From: Collimonas sp. OK607
GTDB taxonomy: Bacteria; Pseudomonadota; Gammaproteobacteria; Burkholderiales; Burkholderiaceae_D
NCBI RefSeq assembly: GCF_900111995.1
Contig: NZ_FOKF01000013.1
Coordinates: 1 to 64,000, forward strand
Reading direction: 5' to 3'
Length of the DNA: 64,000 nt
The position numbers were made by a program, and so were the translations under genes. The notes below the pieces were generated by a model that was given only the letters and a program-made list of their open reading frames with translations, did not search any database and was not told the origin of the DNA. Shown in pieces: positions 16,638 to 32,978 of the stretch (its first letter is position 1; every line of letters begins with the position of its first letter).

Positions 16638-16805
16638 TTCGATACATGGTGCTACCGTATCGCACACATGCACTCTCGACACGTCACGCGCGACCTCGAT
16701 TTTGAGCTCCTGGTTTCTAGGCAGGAGTTTGCCTTGATGGCAATCGCCATGTGGTAGGTGAAATTCCGAGAGCAGAAATTCCAATTGACTGGGGCGATCG
16801 GGATC

Positions 16806-18371
16806 ATGCAACAAGACGAACCAAGCGATGTTGGCGGGGAGCCGCCGCCGCAACTCAGGGCGGTTGAGTATGTTCGGATGTCGACCGAGCACCAGCAGTA
16901 CTCTACCGAAAATCAATCTGACAAGATCCGGGAGTACGCCGCCGCGCGCGGCATCGAGATCGTCAGGACCTACGCAGATGCCGGCAAAAGCGGCCTGCGC
17001 ATTGATGGCCGAGCGTCTTTGCAGAAACTGATCAAAGACGTTGAAAGTGGTTCGGCGGACTTTACGATCATCCTAGTCTACGACGTCAGTCGCTGGGGCC
17101 GCTTCCAAGATGCCGACGAGAGCGCCTATTACGAGTATCGGTGCCGACGTGCCGGCATTCAGGTCGCCTACTGCGCCGAGCAGTTTGAAAATGACGGCTC
17201 CCCAGTATCCACGATCGTCAAGGGTGTCAAACGGGCCATGGCCGGCGAGTATAGTCGAGAGTTGTCCGCCAAAGTATTCGCGGGGCAGTGCCGACTGATT
17301 GAGCTCGGCTACCGCCAAGGTGGGCCCGCCGGGTATGGGCTGCGCCGAATCCTTATTGACCAGAATGGCGCCATCAAGGCCGAGTTGACGCGTGGTGAGC
17401 ACAAGAGCCTGCAGACCGACCGCGTTATCCTCATGCCCGGCCCGGAAGATGAAGTTCGCACCGTGAACCTGATGTACCACTGGTTCATCAATGATGGCCT
17501 TGTGGAGTCAGAGATCGCCGGGCGTCTAAATGGCATGGCGGTGCATACCGACCTTGACCGGGAGTGGACGCGCGGTACGGTGCACGAGGTGCTGACCAAC
17601 GAAAAGTACATCGGCAACAACGTCTACAACCGGATTTCGTTCAAGCTCAAGAAGCTGCGCGTGGAAAACACGCCCGATATGTGGATCAAGAAGGAGGGGG
17701 CCTTCGAGCCGATCGTGCCACCCGACGTGTTCTACACGGCACAGGGCATCGTGCGGGCCAGGGCGTACCGTTACACTAATGATGAATTGATCGAGCGCCT
17801 GCGCAATCTGTACCAAAACCGGGGCTTTCTGTCCGGTCTGGTTATTAATGAAACCGAGGGTATGCCATCGACCTCTATCTACTCGCACAGGTTCGGCAGT
17901 CTGGTCCGTGCCTATCAAATGGTGGGTTTCACACCTGATCGCGACTACCGATACCTGGAAACCAACAAGTTCTTGCGCCGCTTCCATCCCGAGATCGTCA
18001 ATCAGACTGAAAGCCAGATCGCCATGGTGGGTGGATCGCTCCGGCGCGACCCCGCCACGGATCTTCTTCGGATCAACGACGAATTCAGCATCTCGCTGGT
18101 GCTGGCGCGCTGCCAGACACCGGAGAGTGGCCGGCATCACTGGAAGGTTCGGTTCGACACCAGTTTGGTGCCGGACATTACCGTGGCAGTCAGACTGGAC
18201 CAAGCCAATCAGGCAGCGCTGGACTATTACCTATTGCCGCGGCTGGACTTCGGGCAGCCCCGCATCAATCTGGCAGAACGTAACCCGATCGAGTTTGAGA
18301 GCTATCGATTTGACAGCTTGGACTACCTGTACGGGATGGCAGAGCGGATACGCGTCAGGAGAGCAGCATGA
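16806..18371 (+). CDS. Large serine recombinase
   Basis: About 521 aa from the ATG at 16806 (in-frame alternative 16758). The resolvase catalytic domain covers residues 18-170. The nucleophile is Ser26 in YVRMSTE, and the conserved arginine segment is YDVSRWGRFQD. Next comes a 'Recombinase' domain (about 185-300, GYRQGGPAGYGLRR and LTNEKYIGNNVYNR). The C-terminal part lacks an obvious zinc ribbon. Such enzymes catalyse site-specific DNA integration or excision. Its stop overlaps the next start (ATGA), so it is translated in an operon with two ParB-like proteins. Confidence 0.9.
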   Translation: MQQDEPSDVGGEPPPQLRAVEYVRMSTEHQQYSTENQSDKIREYAAARGIEIVRTYADAGKSGLRIDGRASLQKLIKDVESGSADFTIILVYDVSRWGRFQDADESAYYEYRCRRAGIQVAYCAEQFENDGSPVSTIVKGVKRAMAGEYSRELSAKVFAGQCRLIELGYRQGGPAGYGLRRILIDQNGAIKAELTRGEHKSLQTDRVILMPGPEDEVRTVNLMYHWFINDGLVESEIAGRLNGMAVHTDLDREWTRGTVHEVLTNEKYIGNNVYNRISFKLKKLRVENTPDMWIKKEGAFEPIVPPDVFYTAQGIVRARAYRYTNDELIERLRNLYQNRGFLSGLVINETEGMPSTSIYSHRFGSLVRAYQMVGFTPDRDYRYLETNKFLRRFHPEIVNQTESQIAMVGGSLRRDPATDLLRINDEFSISLVLARCQTPESGRHHWKVRFDTSLVPDITVAVRLDQANQAALDYYLLPRLDFGQPRINLAERNPIEFESYRFDSLDYLYGMAERIRVRRAA

Positions 18372-19270
18372 CGGAAAAGATGGAGTCTGGAGAGATGCGA
18401 ATGATCCCGATCGATCTAATCGATGTCCTCAATCCCCGGGAGCGCAACAAGGGGGTATTCGATGAGATTGTCGGCAACATCCAGACGATCGGGCTGAAAA
18501 AGCCGATCACCGTCACCCCGCGCGCCGGACCAGATGGCACTGAGCGCTACATGTTGATTTGCGGCGAAGGTCGTATGAAAGCGTTCCGATCCTTGGGTGA
18601 GAATACCATTCCGGCCTTGGTGGTGACAGTCAGCGATGAGAACGCGTACATCATGAGTTTGGCTGAGAACATAGCCCGCCGTCAATACCGTCCGCTGGAA
18701 TTGCTCGTCGGCATCGAGCAACTCCGCGACCAGGGATATGACAAAAAGATCATTGCCCAAAAGACCGGACTGACCGCTGAGTACGTCAACGGCATCCTAT
18801 TGCTTTTGAAAAACGGCGAGGAACGCCTGCTGGTGGCGGTAGAAAAGGGACGCATCCCCCTGAACGCTGCTCTGACCATTTGCGGTGCGGGGGATGACGA
18901 CAAAGCCATTCAGGCCGCGCTACAGGATGCCTATGAATCCGGCAAACTGCGCGGCAATCGACTGATCCAAGCTCGGCGCGTCATCGAACGCCGGCAAACA
19001 CTGGGCCGTTCTGTTCAACGTGGAACGCCACGTAAGTTGCCAGACGTCACGACGTCTAGTTTGGTCAGGACCTATCAAAAGGAAGTCGATCGTCAAAAGC
19101 AGATGGTGAAAAAGGCGGAGATCGCCCAGCAGCGTCTGCTGTTTGTCGTCAGTGCCATGCGCGAACTGCTGGCCGACGAGAATTTCACCACCCTGTTGCG
19201 TGCGGAGGGCCTGGATACCCTGCCGAAATACCTCGCTGAACGTATCTTGTCAGGAGGGCGAGCAGCATGA
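18368..19270 (+). CDS. ParB/Spo0J-type protein A of the recombinase cassette
   Basis: 300 aa. An N-terminal ParB domain (about 12-110) has the box GEGRMKAFRSLGE (the CTP-binding GxxRxxA segment) and AENIARRQYRPLE. A helix-turn-helix region follows (KKIIAQKTGLTAEYVNGIL), then a basic C-terminal coiled coil. Overlaps both neighbours by 4 bases (ATGA). True ParB needs ParA and parS, but no ParA gene is present, so partition is doubtful. More likely a DNA-binding partner of the recombinase. Confidence 0.82.
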   Translation: MTEKMESGEMRMIPIDLIDVLNPRERNKGVFDEIVGNIQTIGLKKPITVTPRAGPDGTERYMLICGEGRMKAFRSLGENTIPALVVTVSDENAYIMSLAENIARRQYRPLELLVGIEQLRDQGYDKKIIAQKTGLTAEYVNGILLLLKNGEERLLVAVEKGRIPLNAALTICGAGDDDKAIQAALQDAYESGKLRGNRLIQARRVIERRQTLGRSVQRGTPRKLPDVTTSSLVRTYQKEVDRQKQMVKKAEIAQQRLLFVVSAMRELLADENFTTLLRAEGLDTLPKYLAERILSGGRAA

Positions 19271-20145
19271 CCAAGGTATCTCTCGGATTCGATCTTGAGC
19301 CGCTGATAGTACCCATCGACAAAATCCTGCCGTCTCGCAAAACGCCGATGGGCGTGGCCACATCCAAAAAATTCATGCAGATCCGCTCTTCAATTCAGGA
19401 AATCGGACTGATCGAGCCCTTGTCAGTGGGGCAGGCGGATCCCAAGACGGGCCAGCACATCCTGCTTGATGGCCACATTCGCGTCATCGCGTTACGGGAG
19501 TTGAGCTTTGGCGAGGTGCAGTGCTTGGTTGCTACAGATGATGAGAGCTACACGTACAACAGTCGAATCAACCGCCTGTCCACGATCCAGGAGCACTATA
19601 TGATCCGGCGTGCAATTCAACGTGGGGTTACGCCGGAACGACTGGCGAAGGCGCTCAGCGTCGATACGCGCACGATCACGCGGAAGGCGACACTGCTCGA
19701 GGGGATCTGTCCGGAGGCCGGTGAACTGCTGAAGGACCGTCACTTCGCCACCGACATTTCCCGGGTGTTGCGCAAAATGAAGCCCACGCGCCAGGTCGAA
19801 TGTGTTGAATTGATGGTTTCGGCCAACACTGTCACTGTCGCCTATGCCGAAGCGATGTTGGTCGCAACCCCCACGGAAATGCTGGTCGAGGGGAAAAAGC
19901 CAGCGAAGTTGACGGGCCTGACCCAGGAGCAGATGGCAAAAATGGAGCGCGAGATGAGCAATTTACAAGGGCAGTACAAAATGGTCGAGCAGACCTACGG
20001 GCAGGACGTTTTGAATCTAGTGCTGGCCAAGGGCTACCTAGCCCGGCTCCTGGAAAACAAGTCCGTCGCCCGTTACCTGAAACAGCGCCAGCCTGACGTG
20101 CTGGCCGAGTTCGAGGTAATCGTGCAAACGGTGTCGCTTGATTGA
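19267..20145 (+). CDS. ParB/RepB-like protein B of the recombinase cassette
   Basis: 292 aa. The ParB-type N-terminus contains GQHILLDGHIRVIALRE, where the usual GxxRxxA box is DGHIRVIA. It continues as a RepB-family plasmid partition-like domain (HYMIRRAIQRGVTPERLA, a helix-turn-helix and a glutamine/methionine-rich coiled coil near 215-245). It starts inside the stop of the previous gene (ATGA). Two different ParB-like proteins in tandem without ParA are unusual. A role in the same mobile element is inferred from coupling. Confidence 0.8.
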   Translation: MTKVSLGFDLEPLIVPIDKILPSRKTPMGVATSKKFMQIRSSIQEIGLIEPLSVGQADPKTGQHILLDGHIRVIALRELSFGEVQCLVATDDESYTYNSRINRLSTIQEHYMIRRAIQRGVTPERLAKALSVDTRTITRKATLLEGICPEAGELLKDRHFATDISRVLRKMKPTRQVECVELMVSANTVTVAYAEAMLVATPTEMLVEGKKPAKLTGLTQEQMAKMEREMSNLQGQYKMVEQTYGQDVLNLVLAKGYLARLLENKSVARYLKQRQPDVLAEFEVIVQTVSLD

Positions 20146-20486: not shown

Positions 20487-20515
20487 TTGCTGCCTTGAAA
20501 ATTTTGCACTATCCT
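20487..20515 (+). promoter_or_regulatory. Candidate sigma-70 promoter of the defence operon
   Basis: TTGCTG (20487-20492) and TATCCT (20510-20515) are 17 bases apart, about 30 bases before the HTH gene start at 20546. Each box has two or so mismatches to consensus, so this is tentative. Confidence 0.35.
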
Positions 20516-20545
20516 GTCGTCGTTTGTCCTAATTTGGTCATCACC

Positions 20546-20800
20546 ATGTCAACAAGTACCAGCGAGGGCCAGATCCTCACAATTAAGCAGGTCGCGGACT
20601 ATCTGAAGGTCACCGAGCGAACGATCTACAGATTGGCTGCCGCCAAAAGAATCCCGGCCTTCAAGGTTGGAGGGACGTGGCGGTTCTCGCGCGCAGACAT
20701 AGACAGCTGGATCAAGCAGCAGTCTATGGAGGCGCTCGACCCGAGCCGTGAAGAGGAATACACGGGCAAGAGCCAAATTAATGATGGGGAGCGAAAGTAA
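20546..20800 (+). CDS. Excisionase-type helix-turn-helix protein, first gene of the defence operon
   Basis: 84 aa. The HTH_17 signature is complete: LTIKQVADYLKVTERTIYRL, then IPAFKVGGTWRFSRADIDSW. The ATG at 20546 (TCACCATG) is chosen because the domain begins ten residues later; a longer frame to 20495 adds non-conserved sequence. The stop TAA overlaps the start of the DUF499 gene (TAATG). Such proteins act as excisionases or small repressors. Here coupling to the operon suggests a built-in transcriptional regulator. Confidence 0.82.
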   Translation: MSTSTSEGQILTIKQVADYLKVTERTIYRLAAAKRIPAFKVGGTWRFSRADIDSWIKQQSMEALDPSREEEYTGKSQINDGERK

Positions 20801-23625
20801 TGCTTGGACTGACACTAAGAGAAGAATTTCGGGGTAAACGTCTCAAGGGGACGGCCATTGAGCTGTCCAACGAATCAAATACCGGCGCGACTCAGATTGC
20901 AGCGCAGGATTTTCTGGATATCACGTATCCCACGCACGATCTGCTGAAAGGTATCGAGGCCGTTGGCCCGAACCAGGGGCGACCGGTAGTGGTGATTGGC
21001 GAGCGCGGTCTCGGTAAGTCGCACTTGATGGCAGCTCTCTACCACGCAGTGAACGATGCAACATCGACCGGCGCTTGGCTGAATTCCTGGGCGACCACGC
21101 TTGGCGATCCGCAGATTAGCAAGATCGCGCTCCGCAGCGAGATGCTCGTGATCGGCGAAAGCCTGCACCGCCAGCGCTACAAATTTCTGTGGGATCTTCT
21201 GCTTGAACGCCATCCCCACGGCACCTACATCAAGGGCAAGTGGGAAGGCATGGGAGCGGCGAAGACCGACATCCCTTCAGATAAGCTGATCCTTGAGCTG
21301 TTGCAGCACACGCCCACGATGCTGCTGCTGGATGAATTCCAGACGTGGTACGACGGCCTGACAAACACTAAGCAGTACCCGTGGAAAAACTGGGCGTTCA
21401 ACTTCATTCAGATCTTGTCGGAGATCGCCAAAGAGCACCCTGAACTACTGGTGCTCGTCATTTCAGTGCGCAACGGTGGCAGCGACGCTTACCAGCAGGT
21501 ACATCGTGTCAATCCGGTCGCTATTGATTTCAAGGCTGGGGGCAATGCTGAACGTATCCAGCAGGATCGTCGGCGGATGTTGCTGCATCGATTATTCGAC
21601 AACCGTCTACAGATTTCTAGTACCACCGTCGAATCGCTGGTGGCCAAACACATCGCGGAATATTTCCGCCTGATGGATATTCCAACCTCAGAGCAAGAAC
21701 GGAAACGAAGCGAATTTGTTGAGTCCTGGCCATATGCACCGCATCTGCTACGTTTACTAGAAGAGCAGGTGTTGATAGCGACTGACGCACAGGAAACGCG
21801 TGACATGATTCGCATCCTAGCTAACCTCTACAAGAGTCGCGGCGAGGCCGTTCCGGTACTTACTGCTGCTGACTTCCGCCTCGATGACGATGCGTCGGGG
21901 ATCGGTGCGTTGTTGGATTCAGTATCGAACGAGCACCACCGCACGCTGCGCGCCAAGGCACAGCAGAACATTATCTCGGTGACCGAAGCCGTGCCTAACC
22001 ATGCAAGCCTTGCACCTCACCTGCAGGAAATCGTTGGGGCGTTGTGGTTGCGCTCGATTGCTGTGGGCAACCTTGCCGGTGCAGAGCCCGTGACACTGCA
22101 GGCCGACATCACGCGAGCCAAGGCTATTGACGACAACGCCTTCCAAGTTGAACTGGCCACGGTCGTCGAGAACAGCTTCAACATCCATCAAGACGGCTTC
22201 CGTCTCGTCTTCCGCGAGGAAGAGAACCCACAGGCCAAACTGATGGCCTGTGCGCGTAACGACAAGCTGTTCTCTGATGGCTCTGACCTTGCCCAACTCG
22301 CCAAGGAAATACGTTACGTCATTGGCGGTACTGAAGAGGTTGCCAAGACCTTCCGCGTCATTGCACTCCCGAAATCCTGGCCGTCTGACCCGTGGTCGCC
22401 GCTCGACGAAACCGAGCAGCCCGACCGGTGGGATGACCGCCTGCCAATCCTCGTATTACCGGAGGAGCCGGACAAGCTCAATGAGCGCCTGGGTCGATGG
22501 GTGAAAGACCATCTGCAGAAGCGTCGTAACACCGTTCGCTTCCTGCTACCGCGCTCGGGCTTTTCGAATGCTTTCCAAGACCGCGATCTTCTGATCCTCG
22601 CCCGCGCCGAAATGAAGGCGCAGGAATGGAGCGGCCAGAATCCTGAGTATAAGAAACTGCACACCAAATATCAGGGCGAGCTGCGCGAAATCCTGAAGAA
22701 GCGCTTTGACCGTTTTGCCGTGTTGCATCGCTGGAATTTCGGCGACCCGAGCCAGTGCGAATTCAGTATCGAGAGCTTGAAGAAGCAAGGCGCGCAGATC
22801 CCCGAAGGAATCGAGGAAGCCTTGGTCAACGATCTGTTCGTGCCAGAGGACTTTGAAGATCTCGTTCTGGAGGCCGCTGGCGACAACTCGCCAGTCGGGA
22901 AGCTGCTGCGCGAATTGCAAGAACCGCGACCAGCTGGACAGGACTGCATTCCGTGGCTAGGCGAGACATCGATGAAGGAGCGCATCCTTCGTCTTTGCGC
23001 GCGCGGCAGGGTCGCAATCAACCTGCGCGGCATGGAATTCCTGCAAGCCCAGCCCGGCGAGGATGAGGAAACGGCGTGGAAGCGCCTGCGTCCAAAGCTC
23101 TCCTACACCGGACGCCAGCTTGACGAAGTCTTCCTATTGGAACCGTCTGCAGTGCCGACAACGGGTGGCACTACACTACCCACGCCGCCTGCCGGAGATC
23201 CCAATGGTGGTGGCCTATTTGATAGCGGGGTAACACCACCGGCGTCACCTACAGGTGGCGGCACCGCACCCGGCGGATACACAACACCCCCCCCGATCGG
23301 TGGTGGGATTTTTGGCGGTGAGTCGACCAGTGTCGACGGTAAGCCGCGCGTGAGCCTGAGTAACCCGGCCACCTCGGCGCTGAACCTTATCGGCAGACTT
23401 GAGGGATGGGGCGTAAATGCTGCGACTCGCCTTCACGAGATTCAAATCAATGCTTCCGGTACGAGCAATAGCAGGCTCGTTGATGCATTGAAGATCGTCG
23501 GCGAAATCAACACCGAGGTAACGATCAAAGTGTCTGCAGCCACGGGCGCGCAGGTGAAGGAACTACTCAAGAAACTGCCTGATGGCATGACTTTCGAGAT
23601 CGCCCTTGAAAAGGAAGACAACTGA
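20800..23625 (+). CDS. DUF499 AAA+ ATPase, BrxC/PglY-like
   Basis: 941 aa. Walker A is GERGLGKSH (67-75) and Walker B is LLLDEFQ (175-181). The layout (ATPase at the N-terminus, long helical middle) is that of DUF499/COG1483 proteins, the large ATPases of BREX-like systems. Residues about 785-845 form a proline/glycine/threonine-rich low-complexity linker, then a small C-terminal domain. A GGGGAGC-type ribosome site precedes the ATG. The stop overlaps the PglZ start (TGATG). It probably powers recognition or methylation of DNA; the exact role in BREX is not settled. Confidence 0.88.
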   Translation: MLGLTLREEFRGKRLKGTAIELSNESNTGATQIAAQDFLDITYPTHDLLKGIEAVGPNQGRPVVVIGERGLGKSHLMAALYHAVNDATSTGAWLNSWATTLGDPQISKIALRSEMLVIGESLHRQRYKFLWDLLLERHPHGTYIKGKWEGMGAAKTDIPSDKLILELLQHTPTMLLLDEFQTWYDGLTNTKQYPWKNWAFNFIQILSEIAKEHPELLVLVISVRNGGSDAYQQVHRVNPVAIDFKAGGNAERIQQDRRRMLLHRLFDNRLQISSTTVESLVAKHIAEYFRLMDIPTSEQERKRSEFVESWPYAPHLLRLLEEQVLIATDAQETRDMIRILANLYKSRGEAVPVLTAADFRLDDDASGIGALLDSVSNEHHRTLRAKAQQNIISVTEAVPNHASLAPHLQEIVGALWLRSIAVGNLAGAEPVTLQADITRAKAIDDNAFQVELATVVENSFNIHQDGFRLVFREEENPQAKLMACARNDKLFSDGSDLAQLAKEIRYVIGGTEEVAKTFRVIALPKSWPSDPWSPLDETEQPDRWDDRLPILVLPEEPDKLNERLGRWVKDHLQKRRNTVRFLLPRSGFSNAFQDRDLLILARAEMKAQEWSGQNPEYKKLHTKYQGELREILKKRFDRFAVLHRWNFGDPSQCEFSIESLKKQGAQIPEGIEEALVNDLFVPEDFEDLVLEAAGDNSPVGKLLRELQEPRPAGQDCIPWLGETSMKERILRLCARGRVAINLRGMEFLQAQPGEDEETAWKRLRPKLSYTGRQLDEVFLLEPSAVPTTGGTTLPTPPAGDPNGGGLFDSGVTPPASPTGGGTAPGGYTTPPPIGGGIFGGESTSVDGKPRVSLSNPATSALNLIGRLEGWGVNAATRLHEIQINASGTSNSRLVDALKIVGEINTEVTIKVSAATGAQVKELLKKLPDGMTFEIALEKEDN

Positions 23626-24614
23626 TGACGCTCGACGCCGGAGTCCTACACCGCCTGACCAAGGGCGCGCCTGAAGACGCGTGGCGCGTCATCATCAACA
23701 AGGCAGTCGAGATCGCTGCGAAGCCGCTGGCTGCAGGCAACGCCCCGAGTGAGGTTACCAAGCGCGACCGCGAGATTGGCACGCTTGATCACTTCCTGTC
23801 CACCAGCGGATGGGATCTGTGGCAAGCCTTCGGTGATACCGTCGAGCGCACCTCGGATCGGCTGGTGCGTTGGTGGAACGAGCCTTACAGCGCCAAAGCA
23901 GTGCTGATCCTCGACGGCCTCTCGCTACGCGAACTACCTTGGCTTCTACAAGGCGCGAAGGAACGTGGCTTTACCCTGCACGAGGTCACCGCTAACGCGT
24001 CCGAATTGCCGGGTGAGACAAACGAGTTTGCCCGCGCGCTGGGCTTCGGCAGCCGCAGTCAGCTTCAAAACAACGGCGGCGGTCTGGCCCATAGCCTCCA
24101 ACCGGCACACACCGAGTGCGTCGACATGGCGTGGAAGGATTGCGCAGGTCTGATCGATGCCGCGCCCAACTGGGTGTTCTGGCACCACTGGCCGGACAGC
24201 AAGGTACACGACGGCGCTGGCGCAGGCCAAGGCCTCGACACCCTGACACGAGACGCGACCGAGCAATTGGGTAGCGACGATTTCTGGACCTTCGTCGAAC
24301 GCTTGGCGACAGGACGTCGGCTGGTAATCACGTCCGACCATGGTTACGCCGCCACAGGCTACTTCCCCGATGCCGATGGCGAGGTCAGTCAGTTTCTAAA
24401 GAAGACCTTCGCCAGTGGGCGCAGCAAGGCTGGCGCTGGTGAGACCGGCCCTTTCGTGCCACCCGTCGCGATGCAAATTAATAGCCCTCACGGTGCTCAC
24501 CTTCTGGCCGTTGGCCGCTGGAAGTGGAAGAGCCAAGGCGGGTACCCAACGATGACGCATGGCGGCCTCTCGCTGCTCGAGGTGTTGTCGCCGTTCGTCG
24601 AAATCACGAAATAA
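23625..24614 (+). CDS. pglZ: Short PglZ-domain protein
   Basis: 329 aa. The alkaline-phosphatase-like PglZ fold is seen in KAVLILDGLS (D97) and VITSDHGYA (D238, H239), with a histidine- and tryptophan-rich middle WVFWHHWPDSK. BREX PglZ proteins are usually 650-900 aa, so this is a compact form with little more than the domain. The start overlaps the DUF499 stop. PglZ is the hallmark protein of BREX and Pgl systems and is needed for defence. The predicted hydrolase chemistry is a family inference. Confidence 0.85.
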   Translation: MTLDAGVLHRLTKGAPEDAWRVIINKAVEIAAKPLAAGNAPSEVTKRDREIGTLDHFLSTSGWDLWQAFGDTVERTSDRLVRWWNEPYSAKAVLILDGLSLRELPWLLQGAKERGFTLHEVTANASELPGETNEFARALGFGSRSQLQNNGGGLAHSLQPAHTECVDMAWKDCAGLIDAAPNWVFWHHWPDSKVHDGAGAGQGLDTLTRDATEQLGSDDFWTFVERLATGRRLVITSDHGYAATGYFPDADGEVSQFLKKTFASGRSKAGAGETGPFVPPVAMQINSPHGAHLLAVGRWKWKSQGGYPTMTHGGLSLLEVLSPFVEITK

Positions 24615-24626
24615 GGAACGCGCTGC

Positions 24627-27600
24627 ATGGCAACTAAAAAAGAACAATTGGCGCAAGAAGTCGCCAAAGTGGTAGGCGCAGGCAAGGCCGTCGCGATGGA
24701 CACTGTCGACTTCAATGACTCGAACCGCCCCAAGACATGCCTAGAGGTCGATTTTCCGATCTTGCCCGTCAATCAAGTGGCCATCATCGAAGGGAACGCC
24801 GGTAAGCCGATCTACCAAATGTCGAAGTGGTGGGCTCGGCGACGTTCGAGCGTATTCCGCTCGATGTTGATCGCAGCGGCTACGAAGGCTCCCGAAGACA
24901 AATCGCACGCAGCCAAGTTGGTGTGGGACAACTACTACGCCAACCACCAGAAAAAAGGCGCATTTAAGCACCTAAAGGTGGCTGATATTTTCATGGGTGG
25001 CGGCACTACTTTGGTCGAGGGCTCGCGTCTAGGTATGCAGATGTACGGAAACGACCTGAACCCTGTCGCGTGGTTCGTCGTCAAGCAGGAACTCGCCAAC
25101 GTCGATCTCGATGAAGTGAAGCGCCTGCTTGCCGCCATCGAGGCCGAGGTCAAGCCGCAGATCATGCCGTACTACTACTGCGACGGCCCAAATGGCGAGA
25201 AAGGAAAATGGACCCACGTGCCAACCAAGCATGTGATGGAGTCAGACTTTGATCCCCTAAGTCTGACAATTGAACAACGCCGCGAATACAGCTACGAAGG
25301 CCCTGAAATCATTTACACCTTCTGGGTCAAGCACGGCCCATGTCAGGTCACGGGTTGTGGCCACCGCACGCCGATTATGACCAGCCCGGTGATTGCCGTG
25401 AAGACTTTGACCGTCAAGCATTGGGAGCACACATGCAGTAAATGCGGTAAGGATTTCCACGTCGAAGACGTCCCAGCTCGCATGGCTCCCGATGTGCCGC
25501 TCTATGTAGCACCGGATGAGTACCCATATTCAGTGATCGATCCGAAACGCGGAGTTGTTTGCCCCCACTGTAGCCATGCAGCAATGGTCAAATTGGGGAA
25601 GGGAAAGAATAAGAAAGTTGAACTGTCGCTGCTGGTGCATCCGCAGTGGCTTTCAGGCAGCCCAAAGCAGGACGCCAACGGTCAGCCGTTTGGCGGATCG
25701 GCGCAAGACGATGCAATATCAACTGCTCGCTGGAATCAAGAACGTGCCAAGAAAATTCGCCTTCTGGAAGTTAGAGGTGTATTGCCAGATGAAGTGACGT
25801 GCCGGGAGACGAAGACCACTTTTAGGACCGGCAAGGAAGGCGGGACAGTTCCAAAGAAATCGAACTACGCGTGCGGCGCGTGCGGAACGGTGCAAGATGT
25901 TTTGGACACAGTGAAGGCATCGGGTAAGACAGGTCCAACGGCCGGATATGCCATTCAGGGCTACGCACCAAAGGCTGCTGACAAAGGCGATGCTTATAAC
26001 GGGCGCTTCTTCGCGGCCTTTGACGAAAAAATCGCTGCGCAGTATGACGCCGCCCAGAATGAATGGGATGCGCGTAAGGACGCAGATCTCTCCCCGTATT
26101 GGCCCAAAAGCGAACTGCCATATGGGTTCATGACCCATCATCTCCAAGGCGGTGTGCCGAATCACGGATTCACGCACTGGTGGACGATGTTCAGCCCCCG
26201 CCAGCTACTAGTCCATGCGCAACTCCTCAAAGCTATCGTCACGCTGGACGGATACTCATGGGAGTCACGCGAGTACGTTCTTGGTGCATTCCAGCAATAT
26301 CTCAGAAATCAAAGTCTTTTCACGCTCTGGAATGTCAAGGCCGACAAGCTTGAGCCAATGTTTGCGAACAATAATTACCATCCGAAATCGACAGTAGTTG
26401 AAAACTGCGTATTCGCAAATCTCGGGAGGGGTAACTGGGCGTCTTGCGTTGAAGGGATTATCGAAGGGCGCGATTGGGCTAAAAATCCTTGGGATACAGT
26501 CAGCGTCGAGGCATTGCGGCGATTGAATCCATTACTTGGTGCTGAATGCACGGGCAAGAGCGAAAAGGTTCTACCTGGTGATCCGCTTGTTCCTGCAACG
26601 ATTTTCCAAGGGTCATCAACCGAGCTTGCCCAGTTGAAGGACGGCTCGCTTGATCTTGTGATAACTGATCCACCCTTTGGCGGACTGCTGCACTATTCAG
26701 AGCTATCTGATTTCTTTTATGTTTGGCTTCGCCTTGTCCTGAAATCGAAATACCCCGATGTCTTTGGCGCGGAGTTCACGCCGAAAGCGATGGAGGTTGT
26801 GGCCAATCGGGCGCGCGAACCTGAAGACGCTGATGGTTTTTATCAACGGTTGCTCACGCAATGCTGGCGAGAAGCGCACCGTATTTTGAAACCGGGTGGT
26901 ATCCTTGCCTTTACCTTCCATCACAGCGAGGACGAGCCTTGGGTAGCAGTGCTGGAGTCGTTGTTCGATGCCGGTTACTACCTAGAGGCGACTTATCCTA
27001 TTCGCTCGGATGAGACCAAGGGCGAAGGCGAATTCGGCTCTAAGACCATTGAATACGACATCATCCACGTCTGCCGCAAGCGTACCGAAGAGCCAAAGGC
27101 GGTCAGCTGGGGCCGCATGCGTCGTGAGGTACTGGCCGACGTGCGCCAGTTGCAAGCGATGCTGGAGAACCACGCCAAGGAAGGCCTGCCCGCCGCGGAC
27201 ATCCAGGTAATCCGGCGTGGCAAAGCGCTCGAATATTTTTCACGCCACTATGGCAAGGTCTACGTTGACGAGGGACGTGCGATCACGGTGAAGGAAGCGC
27301 TGGTCGGTATCAACCAGCTGATCGATGAGGACAGCAAAGGTGGACAGGAACCTCCACCGGTGAATGCGGAGCCGGTCTCGCGCCAGTTCCTGCGCATTTT
27401 TGACGGCAAGACCGAGGTTGCTCGCGACCAGATGCAGAAATTTATGAAGGGTTCTGGCAGCGCGCCGGACGAATTCGAACAACGCGGCTGGTGCAGCGAA
27501 AAAAATAAGGTGTTCACTCTAGTCGATCCCCTCGACTTTGCGCGCGATTGGCAAGGCAAGCACAAACGCAAACTCACAGCCGATCTGGATCAGGCAATCG

Positions 27601-27836
27601 TACTGATAGGAGCGTGCTTTGACGGCAGCGGCATCAATGCGGCAGACACTTTGAAGAACGATAACTTCAAGCCGCATGTGGCATTGAAACCGCTGCTTGA
27701 ATGGCTATCCAAACGCGGTGCCAATTCATCGACCCGAAATGCTGCGTCTCGCGCGGTGTCGATTTTCAATAGCTGGGCCGCAACACAGGCTCCCAAATCA
27801 CTGCAGGGATCGCTGTTTGAGGAGTATGAGCTATGA
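24627..27836 (+). CDS. DUF1156 adenine-specific DNA methylase (PglXI-like)
   Basis: 1069 aa. The DUF1156 head lies at residues 45-100 (IYQMSKWWARRRSSVFRSM). The SAM site is DIFMGGGTTLVEG (about 120-132), and the catalytic motif is ITDPPFGG (about 680). Between them four CxxC-type pairs (CQVTGC, CSKC, CPHC, CGAC) suggest two zinc ribbons. The family is COG1743, predicted N6-adenine methyltransferases, including PglXI of type 3 BREX. It would mark self DNA and set the target motif. The stop overlaps the next start (ATGA). Confidence 0.9.
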   Translation: MATKKEQLAQEVAKVVGAGKAVAMDTVDFNDSNRPKTCLEVDFPILPVNQVAIIEGNAGKPIYQMSKWWARRRSSVFRSMLIAAATKAPEDKSHAAKLVWDNYYANHQKKGAFKHLKVADIFMGGGTTLVEGSRLGMQMYGNDLNPVAWFVVKQELANVDLDEVKRLLAAIEAEVKPQIMPYYYCDGPNGEKGKWTHVPTKHVMESDFDPLSLTIEQRREYSYEGPEIIYTFWVKHGPCQVTGCGHRTPIMTSPVIAVKTLTVKHWEHTCSKCGKDFHVEDVPARMAPDVPLYVAPDEYPYSVIDPKRGVVCPHCSHAAMVKLGKGKNKKVELSLLVHPQWLSGSPKQDANGQPFGGSAQDDAISTARWNQERAKKIRLLEVRGVLPDEVTCRETKTTFRTGKEGGTVPKKSNYACGACGTVQDVLDTVKASGKTGPTAGYAIQGYAPKAADKGDAYNGRFFAAFDEKIAAQYDAAQNEWDARKDADLSPYWPKSELPYGFMTHHLQGGVPNHGFTHWWTMFSPRQLLVHAQLLKAIVTLDGYSWESREYVLGAFQQYLRNQSLFTLWNVKADKLEPMFANNNYHPKSTVVENCVFANLGRGNWASCVEGIIEGRDWAKNPWDTVSVEALRRLNPLLGAECTGKSEKVLPGDPLVPATIFQGSSTELAQLKDGSLDLVITDPPFGGLLHYSELSDFFYVWLRLVLKSKYPDVFGAEFTPKAMEVVANRAREPEDADGFYQRLLTQCWREAHRILKPGGILAFTFHHSEDEPWVAVLESLFDAGYYLEATYPIRSDETKGEGEFGSKTIEYDIIHVCRKRTEEPKAVSWGRMRREVLADVRQLQAMLENHAKEGLPAADIQVIRRGKALEYFSRHYGKVYVDEGRAITVKEALVGINQLIDEDSKGGQEPPPVNAEPVSRQFLRIFDGKTEVARDQMQKFMKGSGSAPDEFEQRGWCSEKNKVFTLVDPLDFARDWQGKHKRKLTADLDQAIVLIGACFDGSGINAADTLKNDNFKPHVALKPLLEWLSKRGANSSTRNAASRAVSIFNSWAATQAPKSLQGSLFEEYEL

Positions 27837-28333
27837 AACAGTTACGAGACACCGTATGGCAACGACGCGGTACGAGCTGGTTGTGGGATGCCGAGGCTCT
27901 GGCCCAAGTGTGCAAGGCCAGCGAGGCGTGGAGCTTGCGCCAATTCGTTCAGGCAACCGGACATTGGCTCGAAGATCTGCCCAGCAATAACAACAATACT
28001 CTTGTGGTGGCGGGCCTGGATGGCTGCTTGGATTTGCTTTCACCTGCCGATGCAGAAAATTGGCTGGGCGCGGAGATGAAGGACGCCATCCTGTCCTTCC
28101 AAGAATTTTACGACGGGCAAGCGGCTCTGGTGTTTTGGTTGCCATCTGGTGCTGGCCGGATTGCCTCTAACTCTGCTACAGACGCCGTGAGCTGGCGCTG
28201 TGCTCACCCAAATGCCAACGAAAACATCGATTTTGGTCGAGTTTTGTGGGGCGAAGCGCACGAATATCCGCAGGAAATCATACTCCGCGAAGGGGCAAAG
28301 GCCGCTGGACTTTTTCACCTACGGATCACCTGA
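27833..28333 (+). CDS. Uncharacterised 166-aa defence-operon protein
   Basis: I recognise no family. The protein has tryptophans spread along its N-terminal half (TSWLWDAEALAQV, WSLRQFVQ), a beta-rich centre (TLVVAGLDGCLDLL) and a YDGQAALVFWLPSG strand. No Walker motif, membrane segment or signal peptide is seen. It starts in the methylase stop (ATGA) and ends 8 bases before the helicase start, so it belongs to the operon. By position it could stand in for the small BrxF or BrxA subunits of type 3 BREX, but I see no sequence likeness. Confidence 0.75.
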   Translation: MKQLRDTVWQRRGTSWLWDAEALAQVCKASEAWSLRQFVQATGHWLEDLPSNNNNTLVVAGLDGCLDLLSPADAENWLGAEMKDAILSFQEFYDGQAALVFWLPSGAGRIASNSATDAVSWRCAHPNANENIDFGRVLWGEAHEYPQEIILREGAKAAGLFHLRIT

Positions 28334-28340
28334 GGCTTCG

Positions 28341-31112
28341 ATGACGGATCAACCTCAATTTACCCCAGGAGAACGGATCACCCATACGGAGTTTGGTCAG
28401 GGTGTCGTTCTTGATGGCGAGCACGACGGCTACCTTCGCGCTTTCTTTGGTGTCGGTGAGCGTCGAGTTCCGCTCGCGTCGATCCGCCTGGAACGTTCGC
28501 GCACCGAGCGCATTCTGCATGCGGTCGACGGTGGCGTGGATCGGGCGCGAAAGGCTTGGTTGTCCTATGAGGCTCACGCGCTGCCGGTAATGGAGAGTGC
28601 CTCGGCGCTTACGTCTGCCAAGATCGATCTATTGCCACACCAGGTGGTGTTGACCCACCGGATCGCGACCGCATCACCTCGCCGCTACCTGATCGCGGAT
28701 GAAGTGGGGCTTGGCAAGACTATCGAGACTGCGCTCATCCTGCGCGAACTGGCGAGCCGGGGTGAACTCACACGGGCACTGATGGTGGTGCCTGCTGGTC
28801 TGGTGAACAACTGGCATCGTGAGTTAAACGAGGTTTTCAACCTCGACTTCGAGGTATTCGGTTCCGAGGGCGACATCACCGATCGCAAGACCAATGCTTT
28901 CGCCAAACACGACCGACTTATCACGAGCATCGACACCCTCAAGCGCCCGGCGCGTATCAAACGCCTGCTGGATGCACCGCGCTGGGACCTGGTGGTGTTC
29001 GACGAAGCGCACCACCTCACCGCCTATCGCACCGGCGGCAAGATCAGGAAAACCGAGAATTACAAACTGGCCGAGGCACTGAAAGATCATTCGCGCGATC
29101 TGTTGTTGCTCTCGGCCACGCCGCACCAAGGCAACCATTTTCAGTTTTGGATGTTGGTGCAGTTGTTGAACCCCACGCTATTTAGTAGTCCTGAGGAGAT
29201 GCTGGAGAACCGTCACCGTTTGAACACGGTGATGTACCGGCGTACCAAGGCAGACGCTTGTCAGCCGGATGGATCTCCGCTGTTTGCCCGTCGCTGGGTG
29301 CACACTGAATCGTTCGTGATGGGCGAGGAGGAGCGTCGCTTCTACGAGAAGCTGCGCGAGTATCTGGAAGACGGATTCAATCTCGCGCGCCGTCAGGGAG
29401 GCAAAGGCCAAGCCCTTGGTTTCCTGATGGCCATCTTCCAAAAAATTGCCGCATCAAGCTTTGCCGCCGTTCGGCGCACGCTCAAGAGGCGCCTGCTGAT
29501 GCTGACGCTGCACGAAGCGTTTCTGCGCGACAAAGATCTCGACATCGAGGGTCGTGAGCGGCTGACGGATGAAGCGCGCGAGCTGATCCACCAAGAATTC
29601 AACCTTTCACGCGACAGTATCGGTCGCAGCGAGGTCGACCGCGTGTTGGCTGATCTCAAGTACCGGTTGGTGAAGAAGCTAGACGAGGAAGCACTGGAGA
29701 TGGCCTCCGACCCCTATGGCAGCGAGTATTCTGCAAGCCATGGCGAGGAAGCTGCATCGGCCGTGGTTGAGCTTCATTTGCCGGAGGAGCGCTTGCGCAT
29801 CGGTGAATTGTTGGCGGTGTTTCCGCAGCAACGCGAAACCAAGGCACAGAAGCTGCTCGATGGGCTGGGGACGCTGTGGCGACAAAACCCAAACGAGAAA
29901 ATCGTGGTGTTCGCCACCTACCTTGGCACGGTGGATTTGATCGCCCGTGAAATCGAACAGACTTTTCCTGGGCAGGGTGTGGCGGTATTGCGTGGCGGCG
30001 ACCACGGAGCCAAAGTTGCGGCAGAACGTCGCTTCCGTCTGAAGGATGGCCCACGTGTGCTCGTCTGTACCGCAGCCGGCCGGGAAGGTATCAATCTGCA
30101 GTTCGCTCGCATCCTGTTCAATTTTGATCTGCCGTGGAACCCGATGGATGTGGAACAGCGCATCGGGCGCATCCACCGCTACGGGCAAAACCACACAGCG
30201 CAGGTCTACAACCTCGTCTTGTCGGACACCATCGAGGGCCGCATCTTCTTGTTGCTCGATGAAAAGCTGACCGAGATCGCACGAACGGTGGGCAAGGTCG
30301 ACGACCAAGGCAATGTGGCAGAAGACCTGCGCGCTCAGATTCTTGGTCAGTTGTCAGAGCGACTCAACTATGACCGGCTGTACCAGGAAGCGTTGTCTGA
30401 CCCCGAGCTGAAACGCACGCAGGTGGAGCTTGAGGCAGCTTTGTCAAATTCGCGCGAAGCGCGACAGGTGGTATTCGACCTGTTCCAAGATCTCAATGGC
30501 TTTAGTCTCGACGACTACAAACCATTTTCCGACGTGTCCTCGGGATTGGATCGACTGGTCCGCTTCATTTCTGCGGCGGTGGCAGATAGGCAGCAGCGGA
30601 TGGTCAAAGTGGATGATGAAACCTATGACCTCGTAACAGTTGATGGTGCCCGCCGCGCACGTTTCACGTTGAGTCGCGACACAGCCACAAGCCGCGACGA
30701 CGTGGAGTTGATGGGTCTGGATCATCCGTTGGTGCAGGAAGAGCTTGGCCGCTGGCGCAGTGTGCCACCGGAAGAGCTCGGTATCGCGGTTGCAGCCGAT
30801 GTTGAAGCGCCAGTGCTATTGTCGTTTTGGCTGGTAGAGACATCTGCCGGAAACGGCGAGCGCCGTGTAGTGGTGCAGCCGATTGCGGCCAAAGTGGATG
30901 GCACTCGAGTGCCGTCGGTGGAGCGCCAATGCGAACACTACTTGCAGGGACCAACCACCACACCGAAGTTTTCGCCGGAGCAACGGCTTGACATTTTTTC
31001 CCGGATCGTAGAACCGACGCTGCAACGAGAAATCAAGCACAAAGGGGCTGCGAATGGGGGTGGAAGTTACTCGGCAGACCTAATTGGGTATGTAGAGGTG
31101 TTACCGATCTAA
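28341..31112 (+). CDS. SNF2-family helicase (BrxHII/DrmD-like)
   Basis: 923 aa from the ATG at 28341, which has TGAGG just upstream; an in-frame earlier start at 28200 would overlap the preceding gene by 134 bases and adds unconserved sequence. Superfamily 2 motifs run in order: DEVGLGKTIE (I, about 118-127), VFDEAHHL (II, about 219), LLSATPHQGN (III, about 257), and GREGINLQFA to QRIGRIHRYGQ (V-VI, about 580-617). SNF2-type helicases move on DNA and occur in BREX type 3 and DISARM. Last gene of the coupled block. Confidence 0.9.
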   Translation: MTDQPQFTPGERITHTEFGQGVVLDGEHDGYLRAFFGVGERRVPLASIRLERSRTERILHAVDGGVDRARKAWLSYEAHALPVMESASALTSAKIDLLPHQVVLTHRIATASPRRYLIADEVGLGKTIETALILRELASRGELTRALMVVPAGLVNNWHRELNEVFNLDFEVFGSEGDITDRKTNAFAKHDRLITSIDTLKRPARIKRLLDAPRWDLVVFDEAHHLTAYRTGGKIRKTENYKLAEALKDHSRDLLLLSATPHQGNHFQFWMLVQLLNPTLFSSPEEMLENRHRLNTVMYRRTKADACQPDGSPLFARRWVHTESFVMGEEERRFYEKLREYLEDGFNLARRQGGKGQALGFLMAIFQKIAASSFAAVRRTLKRRLLMLTLHEAFLRDKDLDIEGRERLTDEARELIHQEFNLSRDSIGRSEVDRVLADLKYRLVKKLDEEALEMASDPYGSEYSASHGEEAASAVVELHLPEERLRIGELLAVFPQQRETKAQKLLDGLGTLWRQNPNEKIVVFATYLGTVDLIAREIEQTFPGQGVAVLRGGDHGAKVAAERRFRLKDGPRVLVCTAAGREGINLQFARILFNFDLPWNPMDVEQRIGRIHRYGQNHTAQVYNLVLSDTIEGRIFLLLDEKLTEIARTVGKVDDQGNVAEDLRAQILGQLSERLNYDRLYQEALSDPELKRTQVELEAALSNSREARQVVFDLFQDLNGFSLDDYKPFSDVSSGLDRLVRFISAAVADRQQRMVKVDDETYDLVTVDGARRARFTLSRDTATSRDDVELMGLDHPLVQEELGRWRSVPPEELGIAVAADVEAPVLLSFWLVETSAGNGERRVVVQPIAAKVDGTRVPSVERQCEHYLQGPTTTPKFSPEQRLDIFSRIVEPTLQREIKHKGAANGGGSYSADLIGYVEVLPI

Positions 31113-31154
31113 TCGATGCTCATATAGTTTCTCTCCGCTTTCGGAGTTATTGGC

Positions 31155-31188
31155 AAGCCCACGTCTTCGCGATGCGGGCTTTCTTCTT
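31155..31188 (+). terminator. Possible terminator after the helicase gene
   Basis: AAGCCC (31155-31160) and GGGCTT (31176-31181) can form a short stem followed by TCTTCTTC. The stem is weak, with a 15-base loop that itself contains CG-tcttc-GCG. It would separate the six-gene block from the next two genes. Confidence 0.4.
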
Positions 31189-31205
31189 CACTAAAGGAAA
31201 AATCC

Positions 31206-31637: not shown

Positions 31638-31711
31638 AAGGGTGCTGTTCTGGTGAACAACAGCGAGGGGTAGAGCCCCCTCGTCTGCAACGACCGAAGG
31701 AAGGAAAACCG

Positions 31712-32542
31712 ATGGCATCGCAAATCGAACGCATCTTGATTCTGGCTAAGACGTACCCGTCGCCCAGCGCACAGCACGTTGAAACGTCGTGCGTCGCTGG
31801 TATCAACGAGCACGGTGCGATGCGCCGCTTGTATCCTGTGCCATTCCGCTTAATTGAGGAAGGCCAGAAATTCAAGAAATGGCAATGGGTCGAAGTGCGC
31901 GTCGAGAAGGCTAACAAAGATCATCGGACTGAAAGCCACAAGCTCTACGTCGACACGATCACCTGCCGTGATGTGATCGATACGAAAAAGCAATGGGATG
32001 CCCGGTGGCCGTGGATCGAAAAGCTACCAACGTTCACGAGTTTCGATGATCTCGAAGCTACCCGAACCGAAACGGGGCTGTCGTTGGCGCTGATGCGACC
32101 AAAGCAGGTGTTGACGCTGGAAGTCGTTGAGGCAAGGGCCGCTGAATGGACGGACGAGGAGCGCGAGAAGTTACTGCGCTACGAGATGCAGGGGCAGCTT
32201 TTCAGCGACACCGAGGTCAAGAAAATGGCCCAGACGCTTCGGAAGGTGCCATTCGATTTCTACTACCGATACACCTGTGAAACGCCGGAGGGCGACAAGG
32301 TGTTCAAGCACAAAATCGTCGATTGGGAAGCGGGTGTGCTGTTCTGGCATTGCCGCCAGAGTCATGGCATTGAATGGGAAAAGCCTTTCCGAGCCAAACT
32401 CGAAGAGGATTTAACAGGAAAAGACTTGATGTTCCTGATGGGCAATCAGCACCGGTTCCAAGATCAGTGGCTGATCATTAGCCTGATTTACCCACCTAGG
32501 CGAAAGCCAGTTGAGGTGACGCTACAGAGCTCGCTTTTTTAG
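31712..32542 (+). CDS. Uncharacterised 276-aa protein paired with a DUF488 gene
   Basis: A good AGGAAGGA site precedes the ATG. The N-terminus IERILILAKTYPSPSAQHVET and AGINEHGAMRRLYPVPFRL look strongly conserved-type, and from memory such proteins are often coded beside DUF488 genes. It is rich in tryptophan and charged residues and has no membrane segment. Its 3' end overlaps the convergent DUF488 gene by 47 bases, so the two last C-terminal stretches are coded on opposite strands of the same DNA. The function is unknown. Confidence 0.75.
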   Translation: MASQIERILILAKTYPSPSAQHVETSCVAGINEHGAMRRLYPVPFRLIEEGQKFKKWQWVEVRVEKANKDHRTESHKLYVDTITCRDVIDTKKQWDARWPWIEKLPTFTSFDDLEATRTETGLSLALMRPKQVLTLEVVEARAAEWTDEEREKLLRYEMQGQLFSDTEVKKMAQTLRKVPFDFYYRYTCETPEGDKVFKHKIVDWEAGVLFWHCRQSHGIEWEKPFRAKLEEDLTGKDLMFLMGNQHRFQDQWLIISLIYPPRRKPVEVTLQSSLF

Positions 32543-32978
32543 CTGAAGCCTTGATGTGCATGACACGCGCACCGCAGTATTCCTTGACTGCATTGGCCAC
32601 CATCGAGCGATGGCAAAAGTTCGAGTCAGCCTCGTAGCAAAGAAGTGCACAGTTCGCCGACGCAGCCAATGCTGAGAGCTCTGCGATGGCATCGTCTTGC
32701 GTCTTGAGGTATTTCATGAACCCTTCAGTGTAACGCTTCCAGTTCCCATCCTCGCGGTAGCGATTACGAACTAGTTTTGGACAACCCAGATCAACCATAT
32801 GGACGTACTCGCGCCCTGAGAGGTTCAGTACATTCGCGAGCGCCTTCTTCGAGAAGCCGACTTTGCGAGACAGCGGTAGCTCGCGGACGTCGACAATCGT
32901 GTCAATGCCGTGCTCGGCGAGCAGCGACATAAACGCGTCAATATCAAGTCCTTCGTAGCCTATGGTGAAAACATTCAT
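32496..32978 (-). CDS. DUF488 family protein
   Basis: 160 aa. The family signature is complete: FTIGYEG at the start, TIVDVRELPLSRKVGFSK, VHMVDLGCPK and the C-terminal LLCYEADSNFCHRSMVA. The CYEA...CHR motif with two cysteines and a histidine may bind metal or act as a catalytic site; the family has no settled function. Start ATG with GAGAGG upstream. Convergent with, and overlapping, the 276-aa gene. It is the last island gene before the prophage. Between 32979 and 33129 I see no gene, and an attachment site may lie here but none is recognisable. Confidence 0.85.
   Translation of the reverse strand: MNVFTIGYEGLDIDAFMSLLAEHGIDTIVDVRELPLSRKVGFSKKALANVLNLSGREYVHMVDLGCPKLVRNRYREDGNWKRYTEGFMKYLKTQDDAIAELSALAASANCALLCYEADSNFCHRSMVANAVKEYCGARVMHIKASAKKASSVASPQLAFA

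Follow-up and report, generated by a model that had tools for sequence, protein, structure and literature searches.

The window analysed here, the whole 64,000-nucleotide stretch at positions 1 to 64,000 of contig NZ_FOKF01000013.1 of Collimonas sp. OK607, carries at 20546 to 31112 a six-gene operon that encodes, in this order, a small helix-turn-helix (HTH) protein, a DUF499 ATPase, a stand-alone PglZ, a DNA methylase, a 166-aa protein (p166) and an SNF2 helicase. With a probability of about 0.72, we read this operon as a bare Type-3 defence system of the BREX-related (BR; BREX, bacteriophage exclusion) group, led by a MAD1-type HTH autorepressor and working as proposed below. The operon kind itself is not new. 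DUF499-centred BR systems were defined by Rakesh and Krishnan (NAR, January 2026; PMC12839542), and because the gene set fits their description of Type-3 BR, the separate subtype that a first-pass annotation of this DNA thought the operon might define is already in print. What the window adds is an intact, bare example of a type that, in the literature cited here, is known so far from comparative genomics, and with it the question of whether a stand-alone PglZ cuts DNA in a system without BrxC. The head HTH is the most informative gene of the operon. The annotation had found an excisionase-type HTH unusual as a first gene, and rightly so, for no mention of one for Type-3 BR was found in PMC12839542 ('excisionase' has 0 matches in its main text). 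Its sequence and setting suggest a portable, BldC-like autorepressor that would bind, and repress from, tandem 10-bp repeats before its own start codon. The general issue behind this gene is how costly immune operons stay silent and survive transfer into an unmarked host.

Operon layout, core proteins and relatives

The six open reading frames (ORFs) are present where the first-pass annotation had placed them and are tightly packed (Table 1), with junctions of -1, -1, +12, -4 and +7 nt. The HTH and ATPase genes, and the ATPase and PglZ genes, thus overlap by one base each, PglZ and methylase are spaced by 12 nt, methylase and p166 overlap by 4 bases, and 7 nt separate p166 from the helicase; this last figure depends on the helicase start at ATG 28341, which we preferred over the mechanical GTG 28200. 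For the HTH gene, the mechanical ORF begins earlier, at TTG 20495, and 20546 was the start used.

Table 1. Features of the operon and its surroundings, in window coordinates
Feature	Position	Strand	Basis
HTH_17 / MAD1-like regulator, 84 aa	20546..20800	+	HTH_17 70.5 bits, E 1.4e-19
DUF499 AAA+ ATPase, 941 aa	20800..23625	+	DUF499 30.8 bits, cut-off 23
Stand-alone PglZ, 329 aa	23625..24614	+	Predicted fold (Foldseek), conserved residues
N6-adenine-type methylase, HmaB / PglXI-like, 1069 aa	24627..27836	+	PADLOC HmaB 131.9 bits
p166, 166 aa, candidate iSTAND (inactive STAND) subunit	27833..28333	+	Conserved place in operon
SNF2 helicase, BrxHII-like, 923 aa	28341..31112	+	PADLOC BrxHI/BrxHII 344.9 bits
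Weak sigma70-like promoter (TTGCTG, 17 nt, TATCCT), overlapped by operator	20487..20515	+	Predicted from sequence, 7/12 consensus positions
Conserved 20-mer GAAAATTTTGCACTATCCTG, 49 nt before HTH start	20497..20516	+	Conservation in HTH-led loci
Four tandem 10-bp repeats TTTTGCACTA, TCCTGTCGTC, GTTTGTCCTA, ATTTGGTCAT, proposed HTH operator	20502..20541	+	TG pairs at lag 10
Serine recombinase, ParB_N/RepB and RepB genes, separate three-gene module upstream	16758..20145	+	Pfam Resolvase, Recombinase, RepB, ParB_N
Candidate defence pair: PDC-M19B (31712-32542, +) and PDC-M19A/DUF488 (32496-32978, -)	31712..32978	.	PADLOC 192.7 and 117 bits

Relatives were collected by a scan with the PglZ alignment; of 54 full PglZ relatives, 44 were taken together with the window into a PglZ model. 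The scan gave 57 loci in named genomes, several of them contigs of metagenome-assembled genomes (MAGs), and 56 were counted after L063, which has PglZ and helicase fragments only, was dropped (L and G numbers are our locus and genome handles). In 47 of the 56 the complete set of five core genes can be seen, and since order and strand are kept in every one of these 47, the arrangement is not a product of chance; the p166 gene occupies the same place in each. Seven of the nine incomplete loci reach a contig end, and the other two run on past PglZ without a methylase match, L014 for 3.2 kb and L051 for 10 kb. L051 at least appears broken, because its PglZ match also stops at residue 244. Relatives with 88-93% PglZ identity occur in several families, and PglZ was found in 2 of 368 other genomes of the class. 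Among PLSDB plasmids 37 records hold it (28 Klebsiella, 32 predicted conjugative), IMG/VR yielded 7 contigs, and no phage record with PglZ was found.

The ATPase, PglZ, methylase and helicase keep their motif residues in alignments of the relatives (L002-L005 were excluded from the structure alignments). The ATPase has, with the window included, its Walker A (G67 57/57, G72 58/58, K73 57/58, S74 58/58) and Walker B residues (D178 and E179, 58/58 each), and its matches are to DUF499, AAA-type and minor families, with no DUF6079 in Pfam and no BrxC in PADLOC at E <= 0.1. PglZ has no Pfam match at E <= 0.1 and weak matches to the BREX PglZ models of PADLOC and NCBIfam (14.2 bits for the BREX-3 model NF033449, cut-off 250); as a sequence profile it found PorX in the PDB at E 0.68-0.75 and nothing better, and against one type-1 BREX PglZ a 19-column HGG match only. 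Its AlphaFold model (pLDDT 78.4, poor at 243-250 and 297-314) nevertheless has the fold, with Foldseek matches to PorX (E 2.2e-9) and to chain B of the BREX entry 9zn5 (879 aa, E 6.3e-6), which we take to be that entry's PglZ. Residues D97, S100, D191, H195, D238, H239 and H312 are invariant in 65/65. Judged from its sequence, the protein is a stand-alone PglZ of the predicted active type, free of fused domains and with catalytic-type residues kept, in which S100 may be the nucleophile.

The methylase matches N6_N4_Mtase (30.5 bits, cut-off 26.7) and PADLOC PglXI (83.4 bits), and it keeps motif I FMGGGTT (residue 122, 54-55/55) and motif IV DPPF (residue 681, 55/55). Between these motifs lie two 4-Cys groups (C239/244/270/273 and C312/315/416, 55/55; C419, 50/55) within the target recognition domain (TRD) insert, where they form predicted zinc fingers. 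In the helicase, SNF2 (83.2 bits) and Helicase_C (63.5 bits) are recognised by Pfam, the best PADLOC match is BrxHI/BrxHII, with HmaA at 307.1 bits, the motifs GLGKT, DEAH and QRIGRIHR are present in 43-44/44, and no nuclease family was matched in Pfam at E <= 0.1. p166 has no match in Pfam, PADLOC or NCBIfam at E <= 0.1, the Walker A pattern GxxxxGK[ST] was not found in the window protein, and its sequence profile gave 0 matches against the PDB and none against one BrxB sequence. Its predicted model is of high quality (pLDDT 90.9), and the best structural matches (E >= 0.42) are largely P-loop folds of the RAD51/RadA, Dmc1 and FlaH type, along with macro domains, a viral helicase and others, a result compatible with an inactive STAND domain.

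Many relatives carry further genes inside the operon. Gaps of more than 500 nt occur between PglZ and methylase (17/51), p166 and helicase (9/47), methylase and p166 (4/47) and ATPase and PglZ (2/56), and the inserts include complete known systems, namely SIR2-HerA, IetAS and HEC-01 (AAA_21 + DUF4276), as well as Schlafen-type genes. They are found in the PglZ-methylase gap of L007, L008, L024, L026, L031 and L043, in the p166-helicase gap of L018, L031 and L032, and also in L036, L040, L044 and L052; L031 holds both SIR2-HerA and HEC-01, and L043 holds IetAS with a HEC-01A-type ATPase. Family scans of one or two examples per kind underlie these identities, the others being assigned by blast clusters or ORF resemblance. 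A defence system embedded in another is known (PMC12255303), as are embedded nuclease effectors (PMC12839542); the terms 'sir2', 'subtilisin' and 'iets' are absent from the main text of the latter. We note that in L121 (NZ_CP023186.1), a conjugative Klebsiella plasmid, the operon has an internal SIR2 and ATP-binding gene and lies close to a gene for a carbapenemase; its DUF499 gene is annotated at 705 aa, shorter than that of the window.

The head gene and its tandem repeats

Against NCBIfam, the window HTH scores above the cut-off of 80 for MAD1 (NF047737, 82.4 bits) and matches the excisionase model TIGR01764 at 63.5 bits. In the relatives, the gene in its place varies. The nearest upstream ORF is of HTH_17 type by profile in 27 of 60 loci, with L012, whose HTH is second nearest, left uncounted; other loci are led by a WYL regulator (7/7 scanned, one of them partial), by a ribbon-helix-helix (RHH)-like protein (two scanned, below the Pfam cut-offs), by a HigA-type regulator as annotated, or, in L120, by a distant HTH_17/MerR protein (53.3 bits), and in many loci no regulator was recognised in the slot. 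That the slot also holds WYL, RHH-like and HigA-type proteins fits a role in regulation rather than catalysis. On a PglZ tree of 52 rows, whose bootstrap had not settled, the best tree requires the HTH label to change 13 times, and well-supported branches force 5 of these changes; shuffled labels give a mean of 17.8, so the label is partly inherited. The leader gene has been gained, lost or swapped while the core stays. Identical PglZ sequences also occur in L013, a WYL-led Verrucomicrobiota MAG, and in L019, an HTH-led Proteobacteria MAG, which may reflect either contamination or a recent transfer in which the head was exchanged.

Ahead of the HTH gene, the four 10-bp units end 4 nt before the start codon, and the first two are overlapped by the conserved 20-mer. 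When up to four mismatches are allowed and HTH starts are taken from alignments, 17 of 29 HTH-led Type-3 BR loci carry the 20-mer at 48-53 nt from the start. None of the 33 loci whose leader is a different regulator, or in which none was recognised, has it within 1.5 kb upstream (L120 is counted among these 33 despite its HTH_17/MerR leader); elsewhere in all these loci it occurs once, in L117. Among 399 genomes of the order, 5 contain a degenerate form of the pattern free of mismatches and 0 the reversed-pattern control, and the 20-mer occurs once in its own genome. Because the 20-mer was derived from the first locus set, the contrast with the 33 loci and the genome search count for more than its frequency there. 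Viral contigs contained the exact operator pattern 0 times.

The 10-bp period extends beyond the 20-mer. TG pairs at lag 10 number 52 in the 29 Type-3 BR heads against 17.0 in shuffled sequence (reached in 0/300 shuffles), and 25 against 7.0 (0/300) in 18 heads of other operons. Neither control has a lag-10 peak: heads of this operon that lack the HTH (31 of them) gave 10 (other lags 4-18), and 28 stretches taken 300 bp further upstream gave 9 (other lags 3-11). The period is also present in heads that lack the 20-mer, where, after near copies had been removed in each head set separately, the 20 heads kept of 24 gave 21 pairs against 9.1 (0/1000) and the 11 of other operons gave 14 against 5.2 (2/1000).

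The same HTH stands at the head of quite different operons. Among 399 genomes of the order, 35 have a match to it at E <= 1e-14, its own included, at 38 places of which one is the window's own; 24 of them were opened, hand-picked mostly from the top (L128, L130 and L179 are in genomes already in the first set). Four proved to be Type-3 BR (two by blast, two by ORF resemblance), one type-1 BREX and one Hma; two combine SNF2 with type III restriction-modification (R-M) genes and two HKD-Snf2 with type III R-M (L166 and L178, each partly scanned); three have UvrD and a methylase (L175, and by ORF resemblance only L176 and L177); one is like the methylation-associated defence system (MADS; L181), one is of Schlafen-ParA type (L163), two are single SF1 helicases, three are Hsp70-AAA operons, and four received no assignment (L164, L170 on a short contig, L174 and L180). 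In L165 the HTH precedes BrxA, B, C, PglX and PglZ of type-1 BREX, with the 20-mer at 2 mismatches, and in L168 it precedes Hma. L181 has matches to mad2, mad5 and mad6, and its methylases fit a type II model more closely than they fit mad2. Of the five genomes that contain the exact element, two have it before an operon of SNF2, type III methylase and type III restriction endonuclease genes (L131, scanned, and L129, fragmented); L129 (G753) is a weak case, since its HTH match holds a stop and its operon is in pieces. Overall, the 20-mer (<=4 mismatches) is present in 8 of the 24 opened places and absent or weaker in 16, and of seven HTHs compared with the NCBIfam MAD1 cut-off of 80, four lie above it and the others score 79.1, 75.5 (L131) and 69.4.

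We also note the operons at L162 (831-8387), L169 and L172, in which a MAD1-type HTH heads a small protein, an Hsp70-like protein, an AAA ATPase and further genes. The Hsp70 protein of L162, the one scanned, had no PADLOC match at E <= 1e-10. This Hsp70-AAA operon is a candidate new defence operon.

These observations suggested to us a wider proposal, to which we give even odds: that the MAD1-type HTH with its tandem 10-bp operator is a portable regulatory head that was joined, on several independent occasions, to defence operons unrelated to one another (Type-3 BR, type-1 BREX, Hma, two kinds of type III R-M with SNF2, MADS-like, UvrD with methylase, Schlafen-ParA) and that would repress them by means of a BldC-like head-to-tail filament running from the promoter to the start codon. 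The operator could then serve as a beacon in genomes, pointing to defence operons that escape protein searches, with the Hsp70-AAA operon as the first such prediction. If the proposal is true, a shared switch with a recognisable site across unrelated systems turns the question of silencing and transfer into a one-assay test, and the operator becomes a DNA-level marker for finding further defence systems. In listings of the open-licence PMC literature, which did not extend to the original MADS paper, no MAD1-type HTH was found as a shared regulator of diverse defence systems.

Genomic setting, proposed working and rival explanations

The defence region lies within an insertion. Among 15 genomes of the genus searched, the congeners G1125 and G1113 have matching flanks, and in both the sequence at window position ~11769 continues straight into that at contig position ~73743; a 62-kb insertion therefore holds the defence region. 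Its junction is the 3' end of a tmRNA gene, with a 9-bp shared core TGGTGGAGG. By ORF reading only, the insertion also holds a phage-like region and, towards its far end, another serine recombinase (L006:4264-5616, identified from the start of its ORF; L006:9743 is contig 73743), so that either recombinase may have made the insertion. Of 398 genomes of the phylum, 37 have a match at E <= 1e-60 to the first recombinase, which belongs to the three-gene module upstream of the operon, and in 20 opened stretches ParB1 stands alongside it in all 20 and both ParBs in 19. As the recombinase-ParB-RepB module adjoins varied genes elsewhere, it lies outside the system, and we rejected it as a part. An HNH_2 protein and a DUF6884 protein are encoded just left of the recombinase (14136-15888, minus strand), and HNH relatives are also near the recombinase module in L094 and L111. 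On the other side, both halves of the PADLOC candidate PDC-M19 adjoin the operon, as they also do in the Undibacterium locus L009. The DNA of this locus corresponds to window 20467-33011, with 81-88% identity over four aligned pieces and gaps between them, and no other part of the window is shared within the 21 kb compared.

We propose the following working for the operon. The HTH would assemble head to tail, in BldC fashion, on the four phased repeats between promoter and start codon and so keep the operon low, and a new recipient cell would express the operon fully until the repressor accumulates. The methylase would mark host DNA at a short site read by the zinc-finger insert, the DUF499 ATPase and p166 would form a checking complex on unmarked DNA, the SNF2 helicase would move on or remodel that DNA, and PglZ, as a metal-dependent enzyme, would cut it. 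Marking, checking, remodelling and cutting follow the model put forward in PMC12839542, and a type I BREX PglZ is reported to be a metal-dependent nuclease (PMC12205998). The analysis shows the gene set, its order, the conserved catalytic motifs, the PglZ fold, the interchangeable leader gene and the phased repeats; repression, methylation, complex assembly, cutting and phage defence are what we infer.

Several results weigh against this reading. The HTH scores 24.7 bits with the HTH_BldC family, whose cut-off is 77, and the promoter is weak and not called by a consensus promoter scan. In the 29 Type-3 BR heads lag 9 is raised as well (31 against 17.0), and when the Type-3 BR heads lacking the 20-mer are taken by themselves (10 non-redundant ones), the excess at lag 10 is modest (8 against 4.1, 40/1000) and lag 9 is as strong (9 against 4.0, 20/1000); shared descent of the HTH heads could preserve the repeats without function. 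As to the core proteins, the Foldseek TM-scores of PglZ are 0.4-0.5 and its model is poor around H312. The p166 model has no PDB match at E <= 0.001, and with no significant structural match its iSTAND label is unproven. The helical N-terminal DUF1156 domain by which the first-pass annotation had named the methylase reaches 16.7 bits in Pfam, below the cut-off of 24, although the methylase identity itself is borne out by PADLOC HmaB.

The most probable alternative accepts the head as a true autoregulatory unit and attributes its 10-bp period to DNA curvature, or to the common descent of one promoter, instead of protein binding. A/T-rich tracts phased at 10 bp bend DNA, the heads are homologous, and the signal is modest in part of the divergent ones; but the period persists in the 20 heads left when near copies are dropped and is flat both in the same-operon heads without the HTH and in the stretches 300 bp upstream, and we regard this explanation as possible but doubtful. 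It seems unlikely that the HTH is an excisionase (a recombination directionality factor) that works for the neighbouring recombinase or was left behind by it, with the repeats as excision sites. The TIGR01764 match would suit such a role, the serine recombinase ends 2.2 kb upstream, and an oligomeric winged-HTH excision factor, RdfS, has been described (PMC11963761). Yet many kinds of operon begin with this HTH gene, in numerous Type-3 BR loci its stop codon shares one base with the start of the ATPase gene, ordinary regulators hold its slot in relatives, and the recombinase-ParB module is present in only two Type-3 BR relatives' stretches (L022 and L037; stretch lengths differ).

More improbable still is a new subtype of BREX itself, a variant of type 3 that its gene order and compact PglZ would define, along the lines the first-pass annotation had drawn. 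The matches listed from the PADLOC search it had called for include BrxHI/BrxHII, PglXI and weak PglZ models. A BREX-like operon of the DNA-modifying defence type, with a type-3-like methylase and a BrxHII-like helicase, holds good, and the PglZ-like fold also speaks for this reading. The same search gave no BrxC match for the ATPase at E <= 0.1, and no BrxC, BrxA, BrxB or BrxF is among the matches listed for the six proteins, PglZ falls far short of the BREX-3 cut-off, and Type-3 BR has been published with this very gene set (PMC12839542). The operon is BREX-like and not BREX proper, and we rejected a BREX subtype on the missing BrxC match and on BrxA and BrxF, neither of which is among the matches listed. 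The compact PglZ and small subunits do set it apart from type 3 BREX, as had been remarked, but both are traits of Type-3 BR and not oddities of this locus. Least probable of all is that the operon is degenerate, non-functional cargo of the 62-kb insertion, which two congeners with matching flanks lack; the six ORFs are intact with their catalytic motifs kept, and close relatives by PglZ identity live in several families. The bare Type-3 BR system with a probable HTH autorepressor remains the preferred reading.

Comparison with known systems

Type-3 BR, as described in PMC12839542, comprises a DUF499 ATPase, an N6-methylase and a nuclease-free BrxHII-like helicase in 569 taxa, with a stand-alone PglZ that is 'near-universal' across them, an inactive STAND subunit in 82%, and two 4-Cys groups in a 'smaller subset' of the methylases. 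The window operon shares the DUF499 ATPase, the stand-alone PglZ, the N6-methylase with TRD insert and two 4-Cys groups, the nuclease-free BrxHII-like helicase, a small extra subunit and a bare locus without a stand-alone nuclease; it differs in its head HTH and proposed operator, of which no mention for the type was found in that paper. With type 3 BREX it has in common a PglXI-type methylase, a BrxHII-type helicase and the PglZ fold, but it has DUF499 instead of BrxC/DUF6079 and a PglZ of 329 aa in place of one described by a 642-position model, and BrxA, BrxB and BrxF are not among the PADLOC and NCBIfam matches listed for nine proteins of the scanned region. The system is thus distinct from type 3 BREX. 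Hma (Type-1 BR) likewise has the DUF499 ATPase, an HmaB-type methylase and an HmaA-type helicase core; the window differs in having PglZ and the p166 gene, in a helicase without a C-terminal nuclease, and in an HmaC score of 17.1 bits against 1426.9 bits for the Hma in L168, and on the helicase and HmaC we rejected this assignment. MADS shares the MAD1-type first gene and nothing further of its MAD2-MAD8 set, beyond MAD1 the matches being weak (mad2 32.0 bits, mad8 15.5 bits), and was rejected, as was DISARM (DrmD similarity of 312.8 bits, NCBIfam cut-off 610).

For the head, BldC is the nearest model. It is a 68-residue MerR-like protein that binds direct repeats head to tail (PMC5859096), and the window HTH resembles it as a small MerR-like winged HTH before direct repeats (in BldC, consensus AATTXXXX(C) per protomer of a head-to-tail oligomer; PMC5859096), but it scores below the BldC family cut-off and its repeat unit is mainly 10 bp. 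By analogy, the HTH would be a distant BldC relative at best, with an arrangement that is the same in kind and a predicted autorepression. Portable defence regulators are already known, namely BrxR/CapW (WYL), CapH+CapP, CapK+CapS (PMC13373217) and RptR (PMC12255303); as proposed for the window HTH, a small DNA-binding regulator precedes diverse immune operons and has its site in the promoter. Their sites are of other kinds, with a palindrome TAGCTA within 9-bp direct repeats as the minimal RptR site (PMC12255303) and TTAA palindromes bound by CapS (PMC13373217), whereas the window HTH belongs to another protein family and has tandem 10-bp direct repeats before it.

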